From an uncultured Caulobacterales bacterium (lineage in GTDB: Bacteria; Pseudomonadota; Alphaproteobacteria; Caulobacterales; Maricaulaceae): 49,385 nt of DNA. Shown here one piece after another: positions 1-44,594 of the stretch (its first letter is position 1; each line of letters starts with the position of its first letter). Position numbers and translations under genes: made by a program. The notes below the pieces were generated by a model. It was given only the letters and a program-made list of their open reading frames with translations. It ran no database searches and was not told the DNA's origin. The stretch is taken from positions 1-49,385 of the forward strand of contig CAKZTE010000002.1 in assembly GCA_937923115.1 (NCBI GenBank), given 5' to 3'.

Positions 1-1299
1 GAGCGTAATTTTGATTACGACCTTCTCTCCAAGACGACATTGTTTGAGAATGCCGTCGGCGACCTCGTCACACTCACACGCTTTGACAAGGCGAGCGGCA
101 AGGTCATCAATCAAACGGCAGAAATCATCTCCGCGCGGCGAGATACGGGTGTGGTCATGCGTGTGGACGGCAAAGTGGAAACACTGTCATGCTCGGGCCT
201 GACCGAGCGCGTGAGATTTAATAGCGCAGGCGAAGGACTGTCCGCCAAGCCTATAATGAGCGTGCAGGTGGATGCAGAGGCCGCAGGAGAGCAAGAAGTG
301 GTCGTAAGCTACCTTACATCTGGTCTCGGCTGGAAAGCGGATTACCGCATCGACCTGAAAGGCGCGATGGAAGGCAAACCCACCGGTACACGCGAGGCAT
401 CTTTGCTCGCATGGTTGACGCTATCAAACCGAACGGCGAAAGATTATTCGGACGTGCCGCTCGCGATTATTGCGGGGGATTTAAACCGTGACCGCGACAC
501 GCGCGCCGTCTCTCCACCCGAACCGTATTTGCAAGGGCAGTGCTATCCGATTGGGAGCACGAAGCGGGGGATTGCCGTGCGCATGAAAGAGAGCGTGCAA
601 CGGATGACAACCTTTAACGGAGTTTCCTCCTCTTCTTACTCAATGGGGATGCCACAAGCTATGGTCAGGCAAGAAATGGGAGACGAAATCGTCGTGACAG
701 GCGTACGCAAAGTCGCGACCGAAGAAAATGTCGGCGATTATAAGCTCTATCGCGTGCCGGGACTTGTTAGCGTGAAGCCCTATCAGACGAAACAGATTGC
801 GTTTTTGGATGAAGAGAGTGTCGAGGTGAACAGGTTCTACTCTGCGGTCGAGGTGGGCTTTCAGCAGCGCTCAAATCCGCTCATGTTGGGCGTCGCCTAT
901 GCGCTCAATAATTCTCGCGAGGATGGATTGGCGCGTGCGCTGCCCAAAGGTACCTACCGCATTTTTGATCACCGCGAAAACGGTCAAACCGTGTTTCTTG
1001 GCGAAGCTTATAAAGACAATTTGGCTGAAGATGAAAAAGTCGAACTTTACACGGTTCAGACTATGAGCGTGCAGATGAAAAGCGAGACTGATGGTTCGCG
1101 CCGTCCTGATAGCGTGACGCATAGCTTTTTTAATGCACTTGATGAAGATGTGCGCGTGAAACTAGAAAATAGAGGCATGGATTTGCGCGGTAAAAAACTC
1201 CGTGGTGCAGAGGCGTTTCGCGACCCAGACGAGATTATTCCGACGTGGTGGATTGATGTACCGAGTGAGAGTGTGGCTGAATTGAGCTATCGGAAATAA
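1..1299 (+). CDS. DUF4139 domain-containing protein, 3' part (5' end outside window)
   Basis: The reading frame is open from base 1, so the gene starts before the window; a TTG at 40 lies inside the conserved region and is not the start. The first residues (N-F-D-Y-D-L-L-S, then F-E-N-A-V-G-D) match the start of the conserved core of DUF4139 / MuiA-like proteins, in which a short N-terminal region precedes a large beta-rich domain. The W-K-A-D-Y-R segment near residue 112 and the C-terminal W-x-I-D-V-P followed by an E-L-S-Y end are also typical of this family. The function is not established; related proteins are probably envelope-associated. The gene is transcribed towards prs and ends before a strong hairpin terminator. 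Family assignment is confident, role is not. Confidence 0.8.
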   Translation, partial: ERNFDYDLLSKTTLFENAVGDLVTLTRFDKASGKVINQTAEIISARRDTGVVMRVDGKVETLSCSGLTERVRFNSAGEGLSAKPIMSVQVDAEAAGEQEVVVSYLTSGLGWKADYRIDLKGAMEGKPTGTREASLLAWLTLSNRTAKDYSDVPLAIIAGDLNRDRDTRAVSPPEPYLQGQCYPIGSTKRGIAVRMKESVQRMTTFNGVSSSSYSMGMPQAMVRQEMGDEIVVTGVRKVATEENVGDYKLYRVPGLVSVKPYQTKQIAFLDEESVEVNRFYSAVEVGFQQRSNPLMLGVAYALNNSREDGLARALPKGTYRIFDHRENGQTVFLGEAYKDNLAEDEKVELYTVQTMSVQMKSETDGSRRPDSVTHSFFNALDEDVRVKLENRGMDLRGKKLRGAEAFRDPDEIIPTWWIDVPSESVAELSYRK

Positions 1300-36228: not shown

Positions 36229-36501
36229 ATTCTTCCCCAGAGCGTTAAACAGCCGTTTACGACTTGTTTTCTGGGGTTAATATAATTCGGTAAAACTTCG
36301 CGCGTCATCCAAATTCGCGGGCATATTTTTGCAAAATTATAGCTGTTAACGGAATTTTTTCGTGAGACTTAATTTAGGTGAACGCTACATTAACGATATT
36401 ACCATCGTGTAATGTGCCCGCTTGATTATGCACCGTAAATGAGGCATTTGTATCGCGCAGGGCCAGAATCAAGAATTGTTCTTGGGGTTCAATGGAGCGC
36501 T

Positions 36502-37167
36502 ATGTCACCTTCGACTACACATTCTGATATCGCCGGTAGGGAACCAGCGGAGTCGCGTGCGATGGAGGTTGTAGTGTTTGATTTTGACGGCACGATCACG
36601 ACAGATGATACGTTTCGCTTGTTCTTGAGTTATTATCGGGGTGCGGCAAATTATGCCGTTAAAATCTTATCCCTTATGCCAACTTTTGTTGCTTATGGTT
36701 TTAAGGCGATTGATCGAAACATGGTCAAAGCGAACGTCATAAGGCGCTTCTTTAAGGGCGAGCCTATGTCTCGCATTCAAGCACGCGCCGATAGTTTTGC
36801 GAAAGATGTCATACCAGGTTTAATCCGGCCTGCCGCAGCAGAGGCACTTGAGCGTGCCAAATTGCGCGAAAAACAAGGGTTTGAGTCATTATATATATGT
36901 AGTGCATCAATTGGGCCATATTTACGGCCCTATTTTTTGCAGCACGGCATCACGAATATTCTTGCGACGGAGCTTAAATCCGAATCGGGAGTGTGTAGCG
37001 GTGAGATCGATGGGTACAATATTTGGGGTGCAGGCAAAGTTCGCCGCATTTTGGCCGAATTTGCGCCCAATGATGTCATTATTAAAGAGGCCTATGGAGA
37101 CAGCAGGGGAGACAGGGAGTTATTAAACGCCGCTAAGGCGTCTTTTTACCGACCTTTTCGCGTGTAA
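36502..37167 (+). CDS. HAD-IB family hydrolase (phosphatase)
   Basis: 221 residues. Motif I F-D-F-D-G-T-I-T, motif II in I-C-S-A-S-I-G-P-Y, motif III G-D-S-R-G-D-R-E-L-L; the helical cap between motif I and II fits the SerB/PgpC-type HAD-IB class. In related proteins the substrate is phosphoserine or a lipid phosphate; not determinable here. ATG 36439 opens a longer frame, but ATG 36502 is preceded by GGAG at proper spacing and M-E-V-V-V-F just before motif I is a third candidate. Divergent from putA; upstream gap has no obvious operator. Confidence 0.82.
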   Translation: MSPSTTHSDIAGREPAESRAMEVVVFDFDGTITTDDTFRLFLSYYRGAANYAVKILSLMPTFVAYGFKAIDRNMVKANVIRRFFKGEPMSRIQARADSFAKDVIPGLIRPAAAEALERAKLREKQGFESLYICSASIGPYLRPYFLQHGITNILATELKSESGVCSGEIDGYNIWGAGKVRRILAEFAPNDVIIKEAYGDSRGDRELLNAAKASFYRPFRV

Positions 37168-37257
37168 ACAACATAGCCATTGATATTCCTTTTTAAATTC
37201 TTAAGAAGGAACTAATGCCTAGCAATTCGTGTTACGGAATGTTAAGGTTTGTAGATG

Positions 37258-37304: not shown

Positions 37305-40300
37305 ATGAAACGTACTCTATTATTAGCAGCAAGTGTCGGCGTATTGGCCGCACCCACTATTGCCCAAGAATTACCACCAGGTAATCCGCTGCCGGGTGAA
37401 TGTTTTGCACGGGTTATCGTACCTGCGCAGTACGAAACGTCGCAAGAGCGCTATGTGCTTAAGCCGGCTAGCGAAGAAATTCGTAAAATCCCTGGTCGCT
37501 TCGAGACCGTAACAGAGCGTGTGCTCGTACAAGAGGCAAGCTTTGAGCTTGTAACTGTTGGCGCAGGCGGCGGAACATCCGTTGTTCCCGGCCGCGGCAC
37601 ACTCACAGTTACAGCGAACGGCACCAGCTATAACATCAATCCGTCAACACGTGCTGTGTCAAACGCTTCTGGCGCGCGCATCGGTTCTGTTGATAACAGC
37701 GGCAACATTGTTGCGTCCAACGGTTCAATCATTGCTGCTGGCGCTGTCAACGCGTTGACTATGGTCGGCACATCTGGCCGCACAACTGTCCGTATGGGCG
37801 GCACGAGCTACATGGTCGACGCAAGCGGCACAGCTTATAATGCCTCAGGATCAAGTATCGGTTCACTTGATAGCCGCGGTAACATCGTTGGTTCTAACGG
37901 CCGCGTCATCGCCTCCAGTGCAGTTGCGCATTATGGTGGCTCACGCAGTGGTTCAACATCCGGCGCGCCTACATTCCGCAACGTCACAGAAACAGTTGTG
38001 GTTCAAGAGGCGTCGACTGAGCTAGTTGTTATCCCGCCAGTATATGAAACTGTGTCAGAAACTGTTGTGGTTCAGCCGCAGTCAGTTGAGTACACAACGA
38101 TCCCAGCGACATTTGAAACATTCACAGACACTGTTGTTGTTCAAGAAGCGACAACTGAGCTCGTAAGTGTTCCCCCAGTTTACGAGACAGTAACTGAAAC
38201 TGTTGTTGTTCAAGACGCCTCCACTGAGCTCGTCACAATTCCTGCCACTTATGAGACAGTTTCTGAAACTGTTGTCGTTCAGCCGCAGTCAGTTGATTAC
38301 GTTACAATCCCTGCAACATTCGAAACTGTTACAGAGACAGTCGTTGTGAAAGACGCCTCTACTGAGCTCGTCACAATTCCTGCGACGTTCGAAACTGTTA
38401 CAGAGAACATGGTTGCTCAGGAAGCGTCCACAGAACTCGTCACAATCCCGCCAGTGTTTGAAACAGTAACAGAAACTGTTGTTGTTCAAGAAGCTTCTAC
38501 TGAGCTCGTGACAATTCCTGCGACATTCGAAACAGTCTCTGAAACTGTTGTTGTTACGCCGCAGTCAGTTGAGTACGTTACGATTCCAGCTGTTTTTGAA
38601 ACAATTCAAGAGCCAGTTGTTGTTCAAGCGGCGTCTACAGAGCTTGTGACTATTCCAGCAACATTTGAAACAGTCTCTGAGACTGTTGTTGTTCAGGACG
38701 CGTCGACAGAGCTCGTCACAATCCCAGCGACGTTTGAAACAGTAACAGAAACTGTTGTTGTTCAAGACGCCTCTACTGAGCTTGTAACAATCCCCGCAAC
38801 CTTTGAAACGGTTTCTGAAACCGTTGTGGTTCAGCCGCAAACAGTTGAATATGTTTCTGTTCCAGCTGTTTATGAAACATTTACGGATACAGTCGTTGTT
38901 CAGGATGCCGGTACAGAATTGGTAACAATTCCAGCCACATTCGAAACAGTGTCTGAAACTGTTGTCGTTCAGCCCGCGACGACAGAGTATGTTGCAATCC
39001 CTGCAACATATGAAACAATCCAAGAGCCAGTTGTTGTTCAAGAAGCGTCAACTGAACTCGTAACGATCCCAGCAACGTTCGAAACAGTTTCTGAAACTGT
39101 TGTTGTTACGCCGCAGTCAGTTGATTATGTGACTATCCCGGCTGTCTTTGAGACAATCCAAGAGCCAGTTGTGGTTCAGGCAGCGTCTACAGAGCTTGTA
39201 ACAATACCTGCGACATTCGAGACCGTTTCTGAAACGATTGTGGTTCAGCCTCAAACCGTTGAGTACATCTCAATCCCAGCTGTTTTTGAAACAGTCCAAG
39301 AGCCCGTTATGGTTCAGGCTGCATCTACAGAGCTCGTAACGATCCCTGCGACGTTTGAAACGGTCACTGAGACTGTTGTCGTTCAGCCAGCAACAACTGA
39401 TTACGTCACTGTTCCTGCAGAATATGAAACAGTAACGGAAACAGTCGTTGTTCAAGAAGCGTCAACTGAACTCGTAACGATCCCAGCCACATTTGAAACT
39501 GTGACTGAGACTGTTGTTGTACAGCCCGCCACAACGGCTTACCGTACAATCCCAGCTGTTTTTGAAACAATTCAAGAGCCAGTTGTTGTTCAAGCGGCGT
39601 CTACAGAGCTTGTTACTATCCCGCCTGTTTATGACACTGTGACTGAAACAGTCGTCGTTCAGCCAGCCTCTACAGAGTATGTTTCTGTTCCAGCTGTGTT
39701 TGAGACAATCCAAGAGCCAGTCGTGGTTCAGGCTGCGTCTACAGAGCTTGTGACTATCCCTGCGAAGTACCGCACAGTCACTGAAACAGTTGTGGTTCAA
39801 GAAGCGTCTACAGAGCTTGTCACAATTCCTGCGACATATGAGACGGTTTCTGAGCCAGTTGTTGTTCAAGAAGCAACGACAGAGCTTGTGACTATCCCTG
39901 CTACTTTTGAGACAGTTTCTGAAACCGTTGTTGTTCAGCCGCAATCCGTTGATTATGTTTCGATCCCTGCGACTTACGAAACATACACAGATACTGTGGT
40001 TGTTCAGGAAGCGTCTACTGAGTTGGTAACAATCCCCGCGACGTTCGAAACAGTGACAGAAACAGTTGTCGTCCAAGACGCTACAACTGAGCTTGTGACA
40101 ATTCCCGCGACTTATGAAACAGTGTCTGAAACTGTTGTCGTCAGAGCGGCGTCCACAGAGCTCGTTGCTATTCCAGCGACATTCAAAGAAGTGACTGAAA
40201 CAGTTGTGGTTCAGCCTCAATCTGTAGAGTATGTCTCTGTCCCAGCGACATATGAAACATACACAGATACTGTGGTTGTTCAGGAAGCGTCAACTGAGCT

Positions 40301-43300
40301 CGTTGCTATCCCAGCTACTTACAAGACTGTGACAGAAACTGTTGTCTCTCAAGAGGCGACAACAGAGCTTGTGACTATTCCTGCTACTTTCGAGACTGTC
40401 TCTGAGACGGTTGTTGTTCAGCCGCAGACTGTTGAGTATGTGACTGTTCCTGCAACATTCCGCACAGTGAATGAAACATATGTGTCACAAGACGCCGCTA
40501 ACCAGCTTACGGTTATCCCTGCGACATATGACACTGTTACTGAAACTATCGTTGTTCAAGAAGCGTCGTCACGCATCGAAGTGGTTCCTGCGAAATACCG
40601 CACAGTCACTGAGCAAATCGTTGTTCAGCCTGCACGTCAAGAAATCGACGTAATTCCTGCAACATATGAAACACGCTCTGAGCGCGTTCTCATCTCTCCT
40701 GCTCGTGAAGAGTGGAAGCCAGGCACACAGGCGCTTAACGCCGCTGAGCTTGGCGCTGGTGGACGCATCAACACGAATGCACGGGGTCAGTTCACTGTCT
40801 TTAACGGCACATCTGAGCAAGTCATTCAGTCGACTGAAACAACAGTGACACAGACTGGCGAAATTCTTTGCCGCGTCTTGATCCCTGCGCAGTACAAAAC
40901 AATCACGAAGCGCGTTGTGAAAACACCGGCTCGTACAGTTCAGAAAACAATTCCAGCTGTTACGAAGTCAATCACAAAACGCGTGATTGATGTGCCTGCT
41001 ACGACACGTGAAGTGGCAATTCCTGCCCGTACAGATACAATTACGCGCCGCGTCGTTCGTACACCTGCACGCGTTGTGTCTTCTGCTGATGCGGGCGGCC
41101 TGACTGGCGGCATGCGCCGCGGTCCAGATGGTGCTCTTATCAAGGGCTTCACGGATGCAAACCGCGATGGCCGTGACGACCGTGATGGTTTGTCATCAAG
41201 CCAAGCTGCTTCTGCTGACCGTGCTTCTGCAAATGCAGGCGCCCGTTCATCAGGTGGACGCTTCAGCCAGCAAACAAGCACTATCGCTAAGCGCGTGATT
41301 GCTGAAGAAGCTAAAGTTGTTGAGCGCGTTATCCCAGCTGTCACGAAAACTGTGTCTCGCCGTGTTGTTAAGACACCAGCGCGTACACAAGAGCGTGTCA
41401 TTCCTGCTCAAACGCAGACAATCACTCGCCGTGTTGTTGACCGTCCGGCCACAACACAAGAGCGCGTTATTCCTGCGATTACAAAGACTGAAACACGTCG
41501 CCGCATTAAGACACCTGCAAGAACAGCGGAACGGGTAATCCCAGCTGTCACGCAAACTGTTACGCGCCGCGTTGTTGACCGTCCGGCAACGACACAAGAA
41601 CGTGTTGTTCCAGCTGTCACGAAAGTGGAAACGCGCCGTGTTGTTAAGACACCAGCGTCGACACAAGAGCGTGTCATTCCTGCACGGACACAGACTGTGT
41701 CTCGCCGCGTCGTTAAGACACCGGCGCGTACGCAAGAACGTACTATACCTGCAATCACGAAGACGGAAACACGTCGCCGCATCAAGACACCTGCCAGCAC
41801 TGCTGAGCGCGTTGTCCCAGCGGTAACAAAAACTGTTACGCGCCGCGTCGTTAAGACACCGGCTCGCACACAGGAACGTGTCATCCCAGCTGTCACTAAA
41901 ATGCGCACTCGCCGCGTTGTCAAAACACCGGCATCTACGCAAGAGCGTGTGGTTCCGGCTATTACGAAACAGGTGACTCGCCGTGTTGTTGATACGCCAG
42001 CGTCGACACAAGAACGTGTCATCCCAGCTGTGACTAAGATGGAAACACGCCGTGTTGTTAAGACACCCGCGTCAACCGTTGAGCGTCAAATCCCAGCTGT
42101 GACAAAGCAAGTCACGCGCCGTGTCATCAAGACACCGGCATCTGTGAGCGAGCGCATGATCCCTGCGGTTACTAAGATGGAAACACGCCGTGTTGTTAAG
42201 ACACCAGCGCAAACTATCGAGGAAACAGTTCCAGCGGTCATGAAGCAAGTCAGCCGCCGCGTTGTTAAGACGCCAGCGTCGACACAGGAGCGTATGGTTC
42301 CAGCCATCACAAAGCAGGAAACTCGCCGCGTTATCAAGAACCCAGCTCGCACTGTTGAGCGCGCGGTTCCAGCTGTAACAAAGCAAGTCACTCGCCGTGT
42401 TGTTAAGACGCCAGCGTCAACAACAGAGCGCGTTATCCCTGCTGTCATGAAGATGGAAACTCGCCGCGTTGTGAAAACACCCGCGTCGACACAAGAGCGT
42501 GTCGTCCCGGCTGTCACAAAGCAGGTCACGCGCCGCGTCGTTAAGACACCCGCGTCGACACAAGAGCGCGTTATTCCGGCTATCACGAAGATGGAAACCC
42601 GCCGCGTTGTGAAAACACCAGCGGCAACACAAGAGCGTATTGTTCCAGCTGTCACAAAGCAGGTCACGCGCCGCGTTGTTAAGACACCGGCTCGTACACA
42701 AGAGCGTGTTATTCCAGCTATCACGAAGATGGAAACTCGCCGCGTTGTTAAGACGCCTGCAGCGACAACAGAGCGCACAATCCCGGCTGTGACAAAAACT
42801 GTCACGCGCCGTGTTGTGAAGACGCCCGCGTCGACACAAGAGCGTGTCATTCCAGCTATCACGAAGCAGGAAACTCGCCGCCGCATTAAGACTCCCGCCA
42901 GCACTGTTGAGCGCGTGATCCCTGCGGTAACGAAAACTGTGACCCGCCGCGTTGTGAAAACGCCAGCGTCGACACAGGAGCGTGTCATCCCAGCGCGTAC
43001 TGACACTGTGACCCGCCGCGTTGTGAAAACACCGGCTCGTACACAAGAGCGTGTCATTCCAGCTGTCACGAAAGTGGAAACGCGCCGCGTTGTGAAGACG
43101 CCAGCGTCGACACAAGAGCGTGTCATTCCAGCTATCACGAAGATGGAAGCGCGCCGCGTTGTGAAAACACCTGCGTCGACACAAGAGCGTGTCATTCCAG
43201 CGGTAACGAAACAGGTTACGCGCCGTGTGGTTCGTACTCCGGCTCAAACGCAAGAGCGTGTGATCCCAGCAGTTATGAAGCCTGTTACGCGCCAAGTCGT

Positions 43301-44594
43301 TAAGACGCCGGCTCGTACGCAAGAGCGTGTTATCCCAGCTGTGACGAAGCAAGTTACGCGTCGTGTTGTTAAGACACCTGCGTCAACTGCTGAGAAAGTC
43401 ATCCCGGCTGTCACGAAAACTTTGTCTCGCCGCGTTGTTAAGACGCCGGCACGGACACAGGAGCGTGTCATTCCAGCTGTGACGAAACAGGTCTCACGTC
43501 GTGTGGTTCGTACACCTGCCACTACTCAAGAGCGCGTTATCCCAGCGATAACGAAGACGGAAACCCGTCGCCGCGTTAAGACACCGGCCCGCACTGCGGA
43601 ACGCGTGATCCCTGCTGTGACGAAAACTGTCACGCGCCGTGTTGTTAAGACACCAGCTCAGACACAAGAACGTGTCATCCCAGCTGTGACGAAACAAATC
43701 ACACGCCGCGTCGTGGACCAGCCCGCTCGTACAGAGCGCCGCGAAATCCCAGCGCGTTACGAGACTGTGACTGTTCAGAAAATGGTGGAAGCACCACGGA
43801 CTGAAACGATTGTTATCCCTGCTGAGTACGGCACGATTGACAAGCGTACAGTTATCCGTCCTGAGAAGGCCGAGTGGCGTCAGGTTCTCTGTGAAGCAAA
43901 TGCTAACTCATCAGTTATCACGGCTATCCAGAACGCACTGAAGACCCAAGGCTACTACCAAGGCCGCATCGACGGGCGTCTCGGCCAAGGCACATATGCT
44001 GCGGTTGAGCAATTCCAGCGTGCACGTGGTCTATCAACAGGCGGCCTGACACTGCGTACGGTTGACGCTTTGGGTGTCGATTGGCGCTCAATGGTCAGCG
44101 GTAACTTGTCCGGTGGATCAATGGGCACAACATCTGGCGGCTTTAGTGGCGGCTCGACTGGCGGTTCATTCTCCTCTGGTACGGTTGTTGGCGGCTCGAC
44201 GGGTTCAATTTCTGGCGGCTCAGCTGCAGGGTACACAATCAGCAATGGCCGCGTCATGGACGCATCAGGCACAATGATTGGTACGCTTAACGCAAATGGC
44301 GACGTCGTGAACTCTGCGGGTCAGATCGTTCTGCGCGGCATGAGTGCTGGCGGCGCGTCAATGGGCGGCATCACAACAGGTGGCTCAATGTCAACTGGCG
44401 GCATGACCTCAGGCGGTTCAATGTCTTCAGGCTCAATGAGCTCTGGTGGCAGCATGTCTGCTGGCGGTTTCTCCGTCCGTGCTGACGGCTCTGTCGTTGA
44501 TAGCCGCGGCGTAACAGTTGGCCGTGTTGACGGCTCTGGCCAAATCATCAACGCCGCTGGCGTCGTGATTGGTCGCGTTACACCTCAGCAGTAA
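37305..44594 (+). CDS. giant secreted repeat protein with peptidoglycan-binding domain
   Basis: 2429 residues. Signal peptide M-K-R-T-L-L-L-A-A-S to T-I-A (cleavage near 20); ATG 37305 is preferred because the longer frame from 37215 puts 30 residues before it, and GGGGG precedes it. C33 starts a short pair of repeats. Residues 98-207 hold two copies of a Gly/Asp/Ser module, 227-1123 hold 39 acidic 23-residue repeats, 1124-1349 a linker (C1189, D-rich loop 1284-1295, extra basic units), 1350-2154 hold 35 basic 23-residue repeats. Then C2196, a PG-binding domain (about 2200-2262, with Q-N-A-L-K-T-Q-G-Y-Y and R-I-D-G-R-L-G-Q-G-T), Gly/Ser/Met linkers and two more modules (2309-2429). Function unknown; wall-anchored extracellular or periplasmic fibre is my inference. 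Terminator follows. Confidence 0.9.
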   Translation: MKRTLLLAASVGVLAAPTIAQELPPGNPLPGECFARVIVPAQYETSQERYVLKPASEEIRKIPGRFETVTERVLVQEASFELVTVGAGGGTSVVPGRGTLTVTANGTSYNINPSTRAVSNASGARIGSVDNSGNIVASNGSIIAAGAVNALTMVGTSGRTTVRMGGTSYMVDASGTAYNASGSSIGSLDSRGNIVGSNGRVIASSAVAHYGGSRSGSTSGAPTFRNVTETVVVQEASTELVVIPPVYETVSETVVVQPQSVEYTTIPATFETFTDTVVVQEATTELVSVPPVYETVTETVVVQDASTELVTIPATYETVSETVVVQPQSVDYVTIPATFETVTETVVVKDASTELVTIPATFETVTENMVAQEASTELVTIPPVFETVTETVVVQEASTELVTIPATFETVSETVVVTPQSVEYVTIPAVFETIQEPVVVQAASTELVTIPATFETVSETVVVQDASTELVTIPATFETVTETVVVQDASTELVTIPATFETVSETVVVQPQTVEYVSVPAVYETFTDTVVVQDAGTELVTIPATFETVSETVVVQPATTEYVAIPATYETIQEPVVVQEASTELVTIPATFETVSETVVVTPQSVDYVTIPAVFETIQEPVVVQAASTELVTIPATFETVSETIVVQPQTVEYISIPAVFETVQEPVMVQAASTELVTIPATFETVTETVVVQPATTDYVTVPAEYETVTETVVVQEASTELVTIPATFETVTETVVVQPATTAYRTIPAVFETIQEPVVVQAASTELVTIPPVYDTVTETVVVQPASTEYVSVPAVFETIQEPVVVQAASTELVTIPAKYRTVTETVVVQEASTELVTIPATYETVSEPVVVQEATTELVTIPATFETVSETVVVQPQSVDYVSIPATYETYTDTVVVQEASTELVTIPATFETVTETVVVQDATTELVTIPATYETVSETVVVRAASTELVAIPATFKEVTETVVVQPQSVEYVSVPATYETYTDTVVVQEASTELVAIPATYKTVTETVVSQEATTELVTIPATFETVSETVVVQPQTVEYVTVPATFRTVNETYVSQDAANQLTVIPATYDTVTETIVVQEASSRIEVVPAKYRTVTEQIVVQPARQEIDVIPATYETRSERVLISPAREEWKPGTQALNAAELGAGGRINTNARGQFTVFNGTSEQVIQSTETTVTQTGEILCRVLIPAQYKTITKRVVKTPARTVQKTIPAVTKSITKRVIDVPATTREVAIPARTDTITRRVVRTPARVVSSADAGGLTGGMRRGPDGALIKGFTDANRDGRDDRDGLSSSQAASADRASANAGARSSGGRFSQQTSTIAKRVIAEEAKVVERVIPAVTKTVSRRVVKTPARTQERVIPAQTQTITRRVVDRPATTQERVIPAITKTETRRRIKTPARTAERVIPAVTQTVTRRVVDRPATTQERVVPAVTKVETRRVVKTPASTQERVIPARTQTVSRRVVKTPARTQERTIPAITKTETRRRIKTPASTAERVVPAVTKTVTRRVVKTPARTQERVIPAVTKMRTRRVVKTPASTQERVVPAITKQVTRRVVDTPASTQERVIPAVTKMETRRVVKTPASTVERQIPAVTKQVTRRVIKTPASVSERMIPAVTKMETRRVVKTPAQTIEETVPAVMKQVSRRVVKTPASTQERMVPAITKQETRRVIKNPARTVERAVPAVTKQVTRRVVKTPASTTERVIPAVMKMETRRVVKTPASTQERVVPAVTKQVTRRVVKTPASTQERVIPAITKMETRRVVKTPAATQERIVPAVTKQVTRRVVKTPARTQERVIPAITKMETRRVVKTPAATTERTIPAVTKTVTRRVVKTPASTQERVIPAITKQETRRRIKTPASTVERVIPAVTKTVTRRVVKTPASTQERVIPARTDTVTRRVVKTPARTQERVIPAVTKVETRRVVKTPASTQERVIPAITKMEARRVVKTPASTQERVIPAVTKQVTRRVVRTPAQTQERVIPAVMKPVTRQVVKTPARTQERVIPAVTKQVTRRVVKTPASTAEKVIPAVTKTLSRRVVKTPARTQERVIPAVTKQVSRRVVRTPATTQERVIPAITKTETRRRVKTPARTAERVIPAVTKTVTRRVVKTPAQTQERVIPAVTKQITRRVVDQPARTERREIPARYETVTVQKMVEAPRTETIVIPAEYGTIDKRTVIRPEKAEWRQVLCEANANSSVITAIQNALKTQGYYQGRIDGRLGQGTYAAVEQFQRARGLSTGGLTLRTVDALGVDWRSMVSGNLSGGSMGTTSGGFSGGSTGGSFSSGTVVGGSTGSISGGSAAGYTISNGRVMDASGTMIGTLNANGDVVNSAGQIVLRGMSAGGASMGGITTGGSMSTGGMTSGGSMSSGSMSSGGSMSAGGFSVRADGSVVDSRGVTVGRVDGSGQIINAAGVVIGRVTPQQ
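37983..40673 (+). repeat. 39 tandem 69-bp acidic-unit repeats
   Basis: Exactly 39 in-frame 69-base units, no indel, ending at 40673; a 40th, degenerate one starts at 40674. A common unit begins V-T-E-T-V-V-V-Q with E at positions 3, 9, 13 and 22 and P at 18, no Lys/Arg in most units. Type A has A-S-T-E-L at 10-14; type B has Q-S-V-E-Y. About -3 to -4 charge per unit. Confidence 0.95.
41352..43766 (+). repeat. 35 tandem 69-bp basic-unit repeats
   Basis: Exactly 35 in-frame 69-base units, no indel. In the same register as the acidic array: V-T-R-R-V-V-K-T-P-A at 1-10, E-R-V-I-P-A at 14-19, T-K at 21-22. Positive residues at 3, 4, 7, 15 and 22, so about +3 to +4 per unit. The first residue often alternates V and E between neighbours, giving a 46-residue (138-base) second-order period in the middle part. 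Confidence 0.95.

Follow-up and report, generated by a model that had tools for sequence, protein, structure and literature searches.

Arms of the SMC/Rad50 type are cytoplasmic α-helical coiled coils that fold back on themselves and carry ATPase heads, and the stems of pore-forming toxins are long two-stranded antiparallel hairpins. Among tandem-repeat proteins, the elongated repeats of RepeatsDB class iii are described as units of 5–40 residues that need other repeats in order to fold (PMC7778985). Here, we analyzed a stretch of 49,385 nucleotides (the window) from an uncultured Caulobacterales bacterium of the family Maricaulaceae (assembly GCA_937923115.1, contig CAKZTE010000002.1, positions 1 to 49,385), which encodes a giant protein of 2429 residues on its forward strand (37305..44594; all features given below lie on this strand). 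The protein carries an acidic and a basic half made of 23-residue units, and we consider it highly probable that it forms an intramolecular β-zipper, i.e., a hairpin in which the two halves of one chain pair with each other. In topology it resembles SMC/Rad50-type arms (two length-matched antiparallel arms, a hinge in the middle, and ends held together), which is an analogy and not a sign of membership, as the giant is predicted to be a β-structure, is repeat-based, charge-coded and secreted, and has no ATPase model among its Pfam hits. The likeness to pore-toxin stems is one of shape only, with no sequence relation shown, template modelling (TM) scores of about 0.1 and no pore, while the predicted difference from class iii repeats is that a unit would fold with its mirror counterpart across the hairpin and not with a neighboring repeat.

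Short two-half proteins with a C-terminal PG_binding_1 domain, which the original prediction had mentioned for alphaproteobacteria, were found in Hyphomonas, Henriciella, Hirschia, and Ponticaulis, and four-module forms in gammaproteobacteria, Desulfobacula, and Nitrospirae. Like the giant, they open their halves or modules with a cysteine and an IPA-type unit, nearly always close them with a tryptophan, and have 23-residue units in equal counts, a closing cysteine and a PG_binding_1-type end. Unlike the giant, which has 41–54 units per half, they have 1–7 units and weak charge separation, and no β-flower insert was seen in those short forms that were read. A YfbK-type VWA protein (PF12034) also has acidic and basic 23-residue units as apparent hairpins; it differs from the giant in its few units, its short turns and the lack of a PG-binding domain among its Pfam hits, and most of its matches lie in shorter frames. 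The short-form repeat corresponded to no curated family in a Pfam scan of five and an NCBIfam scan of four proteins, and the same was true of the giant's repeat in Pfam and NCBIfam scans apart from leucine-rich repeat (LRR)-type matches. No description of this family or of a design with matched halves was found in the open-licence PubMed Central literature among the matches listed, so that its absence from print is unproven.

The window gene is an intact open reading frame, and its acidic-then-basic layout is shared by 25 other complete copies in 7 genera, which argues that the pattern did not arise by chance. Half 1 extends from C33 to W1137 and half 2 from C1189 to W2191. The first conserved cysteine (C1, Cys 33, 37401..37403) marks the start of half 1, in which 42 acidic units of 23 residues (37419..40721) are interrupted by one insert. 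An uninterrupted run of 39 of these units (38031..40721, residues 243–1139, net charge −116) has 16 Lys and Arg against 132 Asp and Glu residues, in agreement with the roughly 900 residues of acidic repeats nearly free of Lys and Arg that had been claimed before. The central linker of about 50 residues (40722..40868), with a conserved motif of the FTVFNG..SEQV type, is the proposed tip of the hairpin and is followed by Cys 1189 (C2, 40869..40871), which starts half 2 and is probably unpaired. Half 2 (40881..43883) has 41 basic units and one 58-residue insert; its uninterrupted run of 37 units (41331..43883, residues 1343–2193, net charge +132) has 194 Lys and Arg against 62 Asp and Glu residues, and three further basic units lie at residues 1193–1261. 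The second block had been called strictly basic: it is indeed net basic overall, but it keeps one to two acidic residues per unit, some of them Glu. The half ends with EWRQVLC, the last residue of which (Cys 2196, C3, 43890..43892) is the proposed disulfide partner of C1, followed by the PG_binding_1 domain (residues 2205–2256, 43917..44072; Pfam E = 1.1e−10; 41.9 bits against a cut-off of 23 for PF01471), as had been predicted. Unit starts are spaced by exactly 23 residues inside both long runs, and the consensus units from the 18 relatives with 54 units in each half (54/54) are IPATYETVTETVVVQEASTELVT for half 1 and IPAVTKQVTRRVVKTPASTVERV for half 2. In these 18 species, units two apart resemble each other more than neighbors do, which gives both halves a second-order period of 46 residues (two units). 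Summed over units, the charge is −120 in half 1 and +145 in half 2, so the proposed cancellation holds roughly and is inexact, with the whole chain at +34.

The two halves have matched numbers of units. Once inserts are removed, the C-to-W distance equals 23n + 3 residues in half 1 and 23n + 1 in half 2; these distances hold in the window protein, where each half also starts with the cysteine and ends with the tryptophan, and the closing cysteine after the second tryptophan and the C-terminal PG_binding_1 domain are present. Counting covered the 26 complete copies among 38 genomes with the giant type, the 12 others being excluded due to frames cut by a contig end (G017, G020, G049, G053, G078, G080, G128, and G133), Ns (G125), a broken frame (G070), or short frames (G075 and G124). 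The value of n was set by hand, with the convention that unit 4, a weak one adjoining the insert of half 2, was counted in every protein, and it was equal between the halves in 23 of the 26 giants: 18 with 54/54 (five genera) and five with 46/46 (two genera). This convention is backed by three loci with almost no half-2 insert (L087, L090, and L095), whose half-2 C-to-W distances correspond to 46 units and 1 residue, 54 units and 4 residues, and 54 units and 8 residues, respectively. Between the 54 and 46 classes, the numbers of both halves shift together under either convention. For the short forms (counted without C-terminal fragments of giants, the cut frames L159 and L170, and one unrelated frame of 227 aa), the parser gave equal counts in 44 of 46 rows, and all 46 were equal after L151 and L171 had been corrected by eye, from their Cys and Trp positions, to four-module proteins with 3/3/3/3 units. 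L023 and L024, which have lost C2 and could not be parsed, are 4/4 by eye. Loci added later were equal in five of five and four of four that were read, adding 2/2 and more 4/4 (second paralogues L213 and L214 as well as the unrelated-frame loci L216 and L053 were left out), and three minimal relatives are 1/1 by eye. The states seen per half are thus 1, 2, 3, 4, 5, 7, 46, and 54 units, with 5/5 in Ponticaulis and 7/7 in Parabeggiatoa.

Common descent alone explains these equal counts poorly, because repeated changes in the number have affected both halves together. Charge balance alone is also a poor explanation: of the 46 short-form rows (the two misparsed ones included), 45 have a half 1 that is more negative than half 2, but no more than 31 have a half 2 with net positive charge. 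Since counts also match in short relatives whose charges are weakly separated, the idea that charge is the root cause of the design found no support. The sister species of the window genome (G001) has 54/54 units, so 12 half-1 units and 13 half-2 units were probably lost in the line of the window, and the mirror sets of lost units overlap only in part; between L043 and L044, the lost units mirror each other exactly (23–30 and 25–32).

Structure prediction points to the same pairing. The AlphaFold2 model of the Hirschia short form (29 sequences) had a mean predicted local distance difference test (pLDDT) of 81.5 and a predicted TM score (pTM) of 0.35, and each of its units contains a strand of about 12 and a strand of about 7 residues; pairing in this and the following model was inferred from strand boundaries and from the asymmetry of the fragment. 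As the strand boundaries of the short form fit parallel and antiparallel arrangements alike, an asymmetric fragment of the window protein was designed in which eight acidic and three basic units flank the linker, and it was predicted as a single chain (25 sequences). The linker was modelled as one helix and three short strands. Elsewhere, strands were confined to fragment residues 115–186, i.e., the three linker-proximal acidic units and three residues before them, and to residues 234–306, the basic part. Mirrored strand boundaries add up to 421 in all but one of 14 cases, where the sum is 420, as in an antiparallel hairpin with p + q = 19 (p + q values refer to IPA-based unit numbering), while the five acidic units without a partner had no other strand (none at residues 1–111) and a block pLDDT of 25–37. 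Mean pLDDT was 59.6 and pTM 0.24. Independent folding of the blocks, which would argue against pairing, is therefore not what the model predicts: acidic units lacking their basic partners do not fold in it. When the short-relative model was compared with solved structures, PG_binding_1 matched known peptidoglycan-binding domains (Z up to 9.8) and the repeat part gave weak matches (Z 2.0–3.3), mostly to stems of pore-forming toxins and over model ranges nearly symmetric about the linker (e.g., 43..194 and 69..167). No convincing solved relative of the ribbon was found in this search (best E values 5e−4 and 3.7e−3, TM about 0.1), and the absence of a structural match is no evidence for a new fold.

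Covariation was computed between all variable half-1 and half-2 residues of the 18 species with 54/54 units, after removal of the common phylogenetic signal, and averaged per register. The best two of 3018 registers are antiparallel, p + q = 21 (z = 7.0) and p + q = 20 (z = 5.5), and stand in a band in which p + q values from 14 to 22 have z of 2.5, 2.4, 3.0, 3.7, 4.3, 1.6, 5.5, 7.0, and 3.2 (at least 2.4 in eight of nine lines), the other printed registers between p + q = −5 and 45 ranging from −2.2 to 1.8. The register p + q = 21 stays on top in all 18 leave-one-out runs and when the set is reduced to 12 non-redundant species. It also does so with the variability threshold at 0.11 or 0.25, and at 0.35 the four best registers all fall within the band. 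Net opposite-charge contacts are highest at p + q = 20 (1.77 per unit), followed by 16 (1.62), out of 70 registers. On these values, the register is fixed to within one or two residues. At the level of whole units, coevolution placed the antiparallel sum of 55 first among 109 diagonals, an earlier residue-level measure placed it second of 78, behind one parallel register, and unit conservation correlated best at zero antiparallel shift (r = 0.40, best of 18 shifts), which is weak when taken alone. Unit charges followed along each half failed to distinguish antiparallel from parallel registers. Overall, antiparallel pairing and its approximate register are indicated by two kinds of computation, prediction and covariation.

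The cysteines fit this arrangement. From the C–W distances, C1 and C3 fall on p + q = 21 wherever the halves are equal, two residues from the AlphaFold register of 19. Three minimal relatives, each of some 200 aa, look like single hairpins with a DG turn and a lone unit in each arm; with DG taken as a two-residue turn, the cysteine sum minus the DG-turn sum is +2 in all three, as in the giant. The middle cysteine has no counterpart in these minimal forms and is lost in L023 and L024, in which the outer two are kept. Given this recurring offset and the loss of the middle cysteine only, we propose, from the sequences, that C1 and C3 may form a disulfide at the open end of the hairpin. In four-module relatives with 3/3/3/3 units and five module cysteines (L150, L151, L155, L189, and L192; from gammaproteobacteria and one Nitrospirae metagenome-assembled genome (MAG)), an arrangement as nested hairpins would leave one of the five cysteines without a partner.

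The YfbK-type protein of the same genome (L009:1758-4784, G000 contig 128; PF12034 E = 9.5e−69) has basic and acidic 23-residue arms joined by turns such as EENGKM and REDGT, as judged by eye. The basic arm comes first in G000 and the acidic arm first in the relatives from G002 and G020, so the order of the arms is reversible, while the joining of unlike arms is constant. Further relatives of this protein were seen at L218 and L238, and the gene beside it is presumably an ECF sigma factor.

According to the reading proposed here, the chain would fold back at the central linker after export and zip up from there, acidic unit k of half 1 pairing antiparallel with basic unit n + 1 − k of half 2. 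The product would be a single long two-stranded β-ribbon with strands of about 12 and about 7 residues per unit, with the linker as its far tip and, at the open end, C1 meeting C3 next to the peptidoglycan-binding domain. Opposite charge would stop the near-identical repeats from pairing inside their own half, and matched counts would allow the arms to close without an overhang, so that the ends meet at the disulfide and the PG-binding domain. With a rise of 0.33 nm per residue in a β-strand, a straight ribbon would reach about 0.3 μm in the window protein and 0.4 μm in the 54-unit relatives; these are upper bounds, as Pro-Ala breaks may coil the ribbon. The self-zipping of the blocks suggested in the original prediction is thus strongly supported and takes a sharper form, antiparallel, unit k with unit n + 1 − k, and probably within the chain. 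The PG_binding_1 domain suggests that the protein is anchored to peptidoglycan, and an envelope spacer or fibre, long and fixed to the wall, would be a tentative guess at its cellular role, which we regard as rather doubtful; a tether, a ruler or a surface fibre would be other candidates.

Several observations weigh against this interpretation. Confidence in the overall shape is low in both AlphaFold models, as the pTM values show, and AlphaFold2 is reported to be over-confident on perfect repeats, which it models as β-solenoids (PMC11795689). The covariation peak lies 1–2 residues off the AlphaFold register, which itself reaches only z = 1.6, the third-best register is parallel (z = 4.3), charge contacts are unfavorable at p + q = 18 (−0.92), and the 46/46 set, with five species, is too small for the covariation analysis. 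Three giants are unequal (the window protein with 42/41, off by one, G081 with 52/48, and G076 with 54/50), and the equality of the others hinges on counting the weak unit beside the half-2 insert. Automatic counts based on a score threshold, which often missed this unit, were equal in 9 of 26 and 11 of 26 giants, with half 2 of most others lower by one or two units. The second of these counts, made with a tolerant rule, reproduced the half-1 numbers set by hand except in L082 (47) and gave the same or one fewer unit in half 2, while a strict anchor rule halted at single odd units. Finally, the units lost in 46-unit forms (compared with 18 references) lie near the middle, with a break point uncertain by several units, and since mirror and same-position loss coincide there, these positions cannot separate the two.

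An antiparallel pairing of the halves between two molecules, either as a swapped dimer or as a polymer in which half 1 lies on half 2 of the next chain, is the strongest competitor, although we consider it improbable. A swapped dimer would give identical matched counts and register, and a polymer would suit a fibre anchored to peptidoglycan; on the other hand, the linker of only about 50 residues directly joins partner units, AlphaFold makes a hairpin from a single-chain input, and the short turns of the minimal and YfbK-type relatives leave little room to swap. We therefore infer that pairing takes place within one chain. Parallel pairing, in which units of the same number k would meet, is the least probable reading of all: the strand boundaries of the short relative fit a parallel offset equally well and the parallel zero diagonal ranked fourth of 109 at the unit level, but at the residue level it ranks 40th of 78, the prediction of the asymmetric fragment argues against it, and the linker is too short to return along 54 units.

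Other explanations dispense with pairing. The strong charge segregation would suit a disordered, charge-driven polyampholyte that coacervates or binds surfaces, as the original prediction had also considered; a coacervate needs none of the 23-residue spacing, the equal counts in weakly charged short forms, the covariation register, or the predicted strands, and because it requires neither a fixed register nor equal unit counts, coacervation remains unsupported and very improbable. Somewhat less probable still is that each block forms a solenoid of its own, for example of the BspA-type LRR class. Pfam LRR_5 matches the protein with E = 3e−17 (best stretch at residues 306–413; PF13306, 63.2 bits against a cut-off of 27.7), and NCBIfam gives an LRR adhesin, HupY, at residues 379–507 (E = 6.4e−10; 37.8 bits, far below its cut-off of 1250). 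LRR_5 units have a period of about 23 as well, so the match may stem from composition and period; moreover, LRR_5 was silent in four of five short relatives scanned and below its cut-off in the fifth (L183, 25.6 bits), and acidic units without partners are predicted to be disordered (no strand, low pLDDT) instead of stacking on themselves. The LRR solenoid, the coacervate, and parallel pairing were rejected on the evidence against each.

Regarding the other parts of the protein, a signal peptide is likely at residues 1 to about 21 (37305..37367) as judged by eye from the sequence, in line with the original prediction, and an alternative in-frame ATG at 37215 would lead to a protein of 2459 aa. 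The half-1 insert around unit 3 (37557..37970, 135 aa) is β-flower-like with a weak match (Bflower_2, E = 0.021) and is absent or down to 3 aa in five of 26 giants; the Gly/Asp-rich half-2 insert between units 3 and 4 (41088..41261) measures only 1–8 aa in four of 26. The C-terminus carries Gly/Ser-rich repeats resembling β-flower and DUF3659 (44217..44585; Bflower_2 E = 2e−8, below its cut-off; DUF3659 E = 4.3e−7), and β-flower-like segments thus occur at two places in the protein. A Caudo_bapla_N match at residues 615–675 (E = 1.1e−4, below its Pfam cut-off) was set aside. Some short forms (L050, L051, L198, and L200) are lipoprotein-like by eye, with a Cys after the signal peptide and a coiled-coil-like stretch ahead of the repeats, which would suggest a membrane end besides the PG-binding end. 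A collapse of repeats during sequencing was also considered: the longest exact DNA repeat inside the window gene is 62 bp, compared with 59–86 bp in three equal-count loci and 50 and 56 bp in the other two unequal ones (ten loci examined), so nothing points to a collapse; the count taken from the window MAG may still be wrong by one unit or a few.

The MAG to which the window belongs as contig 2 measures 2.1 Mb, is 73% complete and lies close to Hellea and Robiginitomaculum, with Hellea balneolensis, Litorimonas cladophorae, Robiginitomaculum antarcticum, and Algimonas as named close matches. Prosthecate members of this group have been described (PMC11556061, PMC11556079). With the C-terminal region as a query (E 1e−20), 54 of 137 family genomes gave a match. 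The giant type accounts for 38 of them and occurs in 8 of the 19 genera, the remaining 16 (genus g6) having frames of 395–469 aa. In a class-wide sample, 17 of 385 genomes matched at E 1e−10, and no frame longer than 729 aa was found among these matches except that of the window. The original prediction knew of no relative of this size; the frames of the 25 other complete giants have 2500–3052 aa, each longer than that of the window, and the search for a variable or mixed order of charges found the acidic half first and the basic half second in all 26. A HAD hydrolase gene (36439..37167), which lies outside the proposed mechanism, is a conserved upstream neighbor in 26 of 36 locus rows (four records occur twice and several contigs end before that point), so the giants look orthologous at one locus; L042 lacks a HAD match, yet keeps PutA and the downstream genes. 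Scanned neighbors in the window are mostly metabolic genes.

Within the window genome there is also a short 4/4 paralogue (L010:1729-3027, G000 contig 117), and several other giant-bearing genomes have a weaker match with a frame of about 415–457 aa. The giant gene of Algimonas arctica (L101/L148) is split into two frames of 1913 and 755 aa, broken inside half 2, by either a true break or a sequencing error. A contig filed under a Granulosicoccaceae MAG (L116) carries a giant gene with a C-terminal match 91% identical to that of the window and, judged by length, about 54 units in half 2; this contig is perhaps misbinned.

We see a little less than an even chance that these proteins represent a new class of tandem repeats, in which complementary halves that are unfolded alone fold back into a ribbon of up to about 0.4 μm, closed by a disulfide at the peptidoglycan anchor, and in which 54 + 54 units serve as a genetically set ruler of the envelope or stalk. 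Should the zipper be real, a domain of several phyla, which family libraries recognize only through its PG-binding end, would be likely to have an undescribed fold. The mirror partner that a unit needs for folding would then lie as many as two thousand residues from it, and charge would label the arms so that near-identical repeats avoid mispairing. It would also explain why a normally labile repeat number moves jointly in both halves and is kept across many species, and would offer designers of proteins and materials a natural modular β-zipper in sizes from 1/1 to 54/54. For the family itself, which has stalked members, the protein would be a candidate for a very long wall-bound element.

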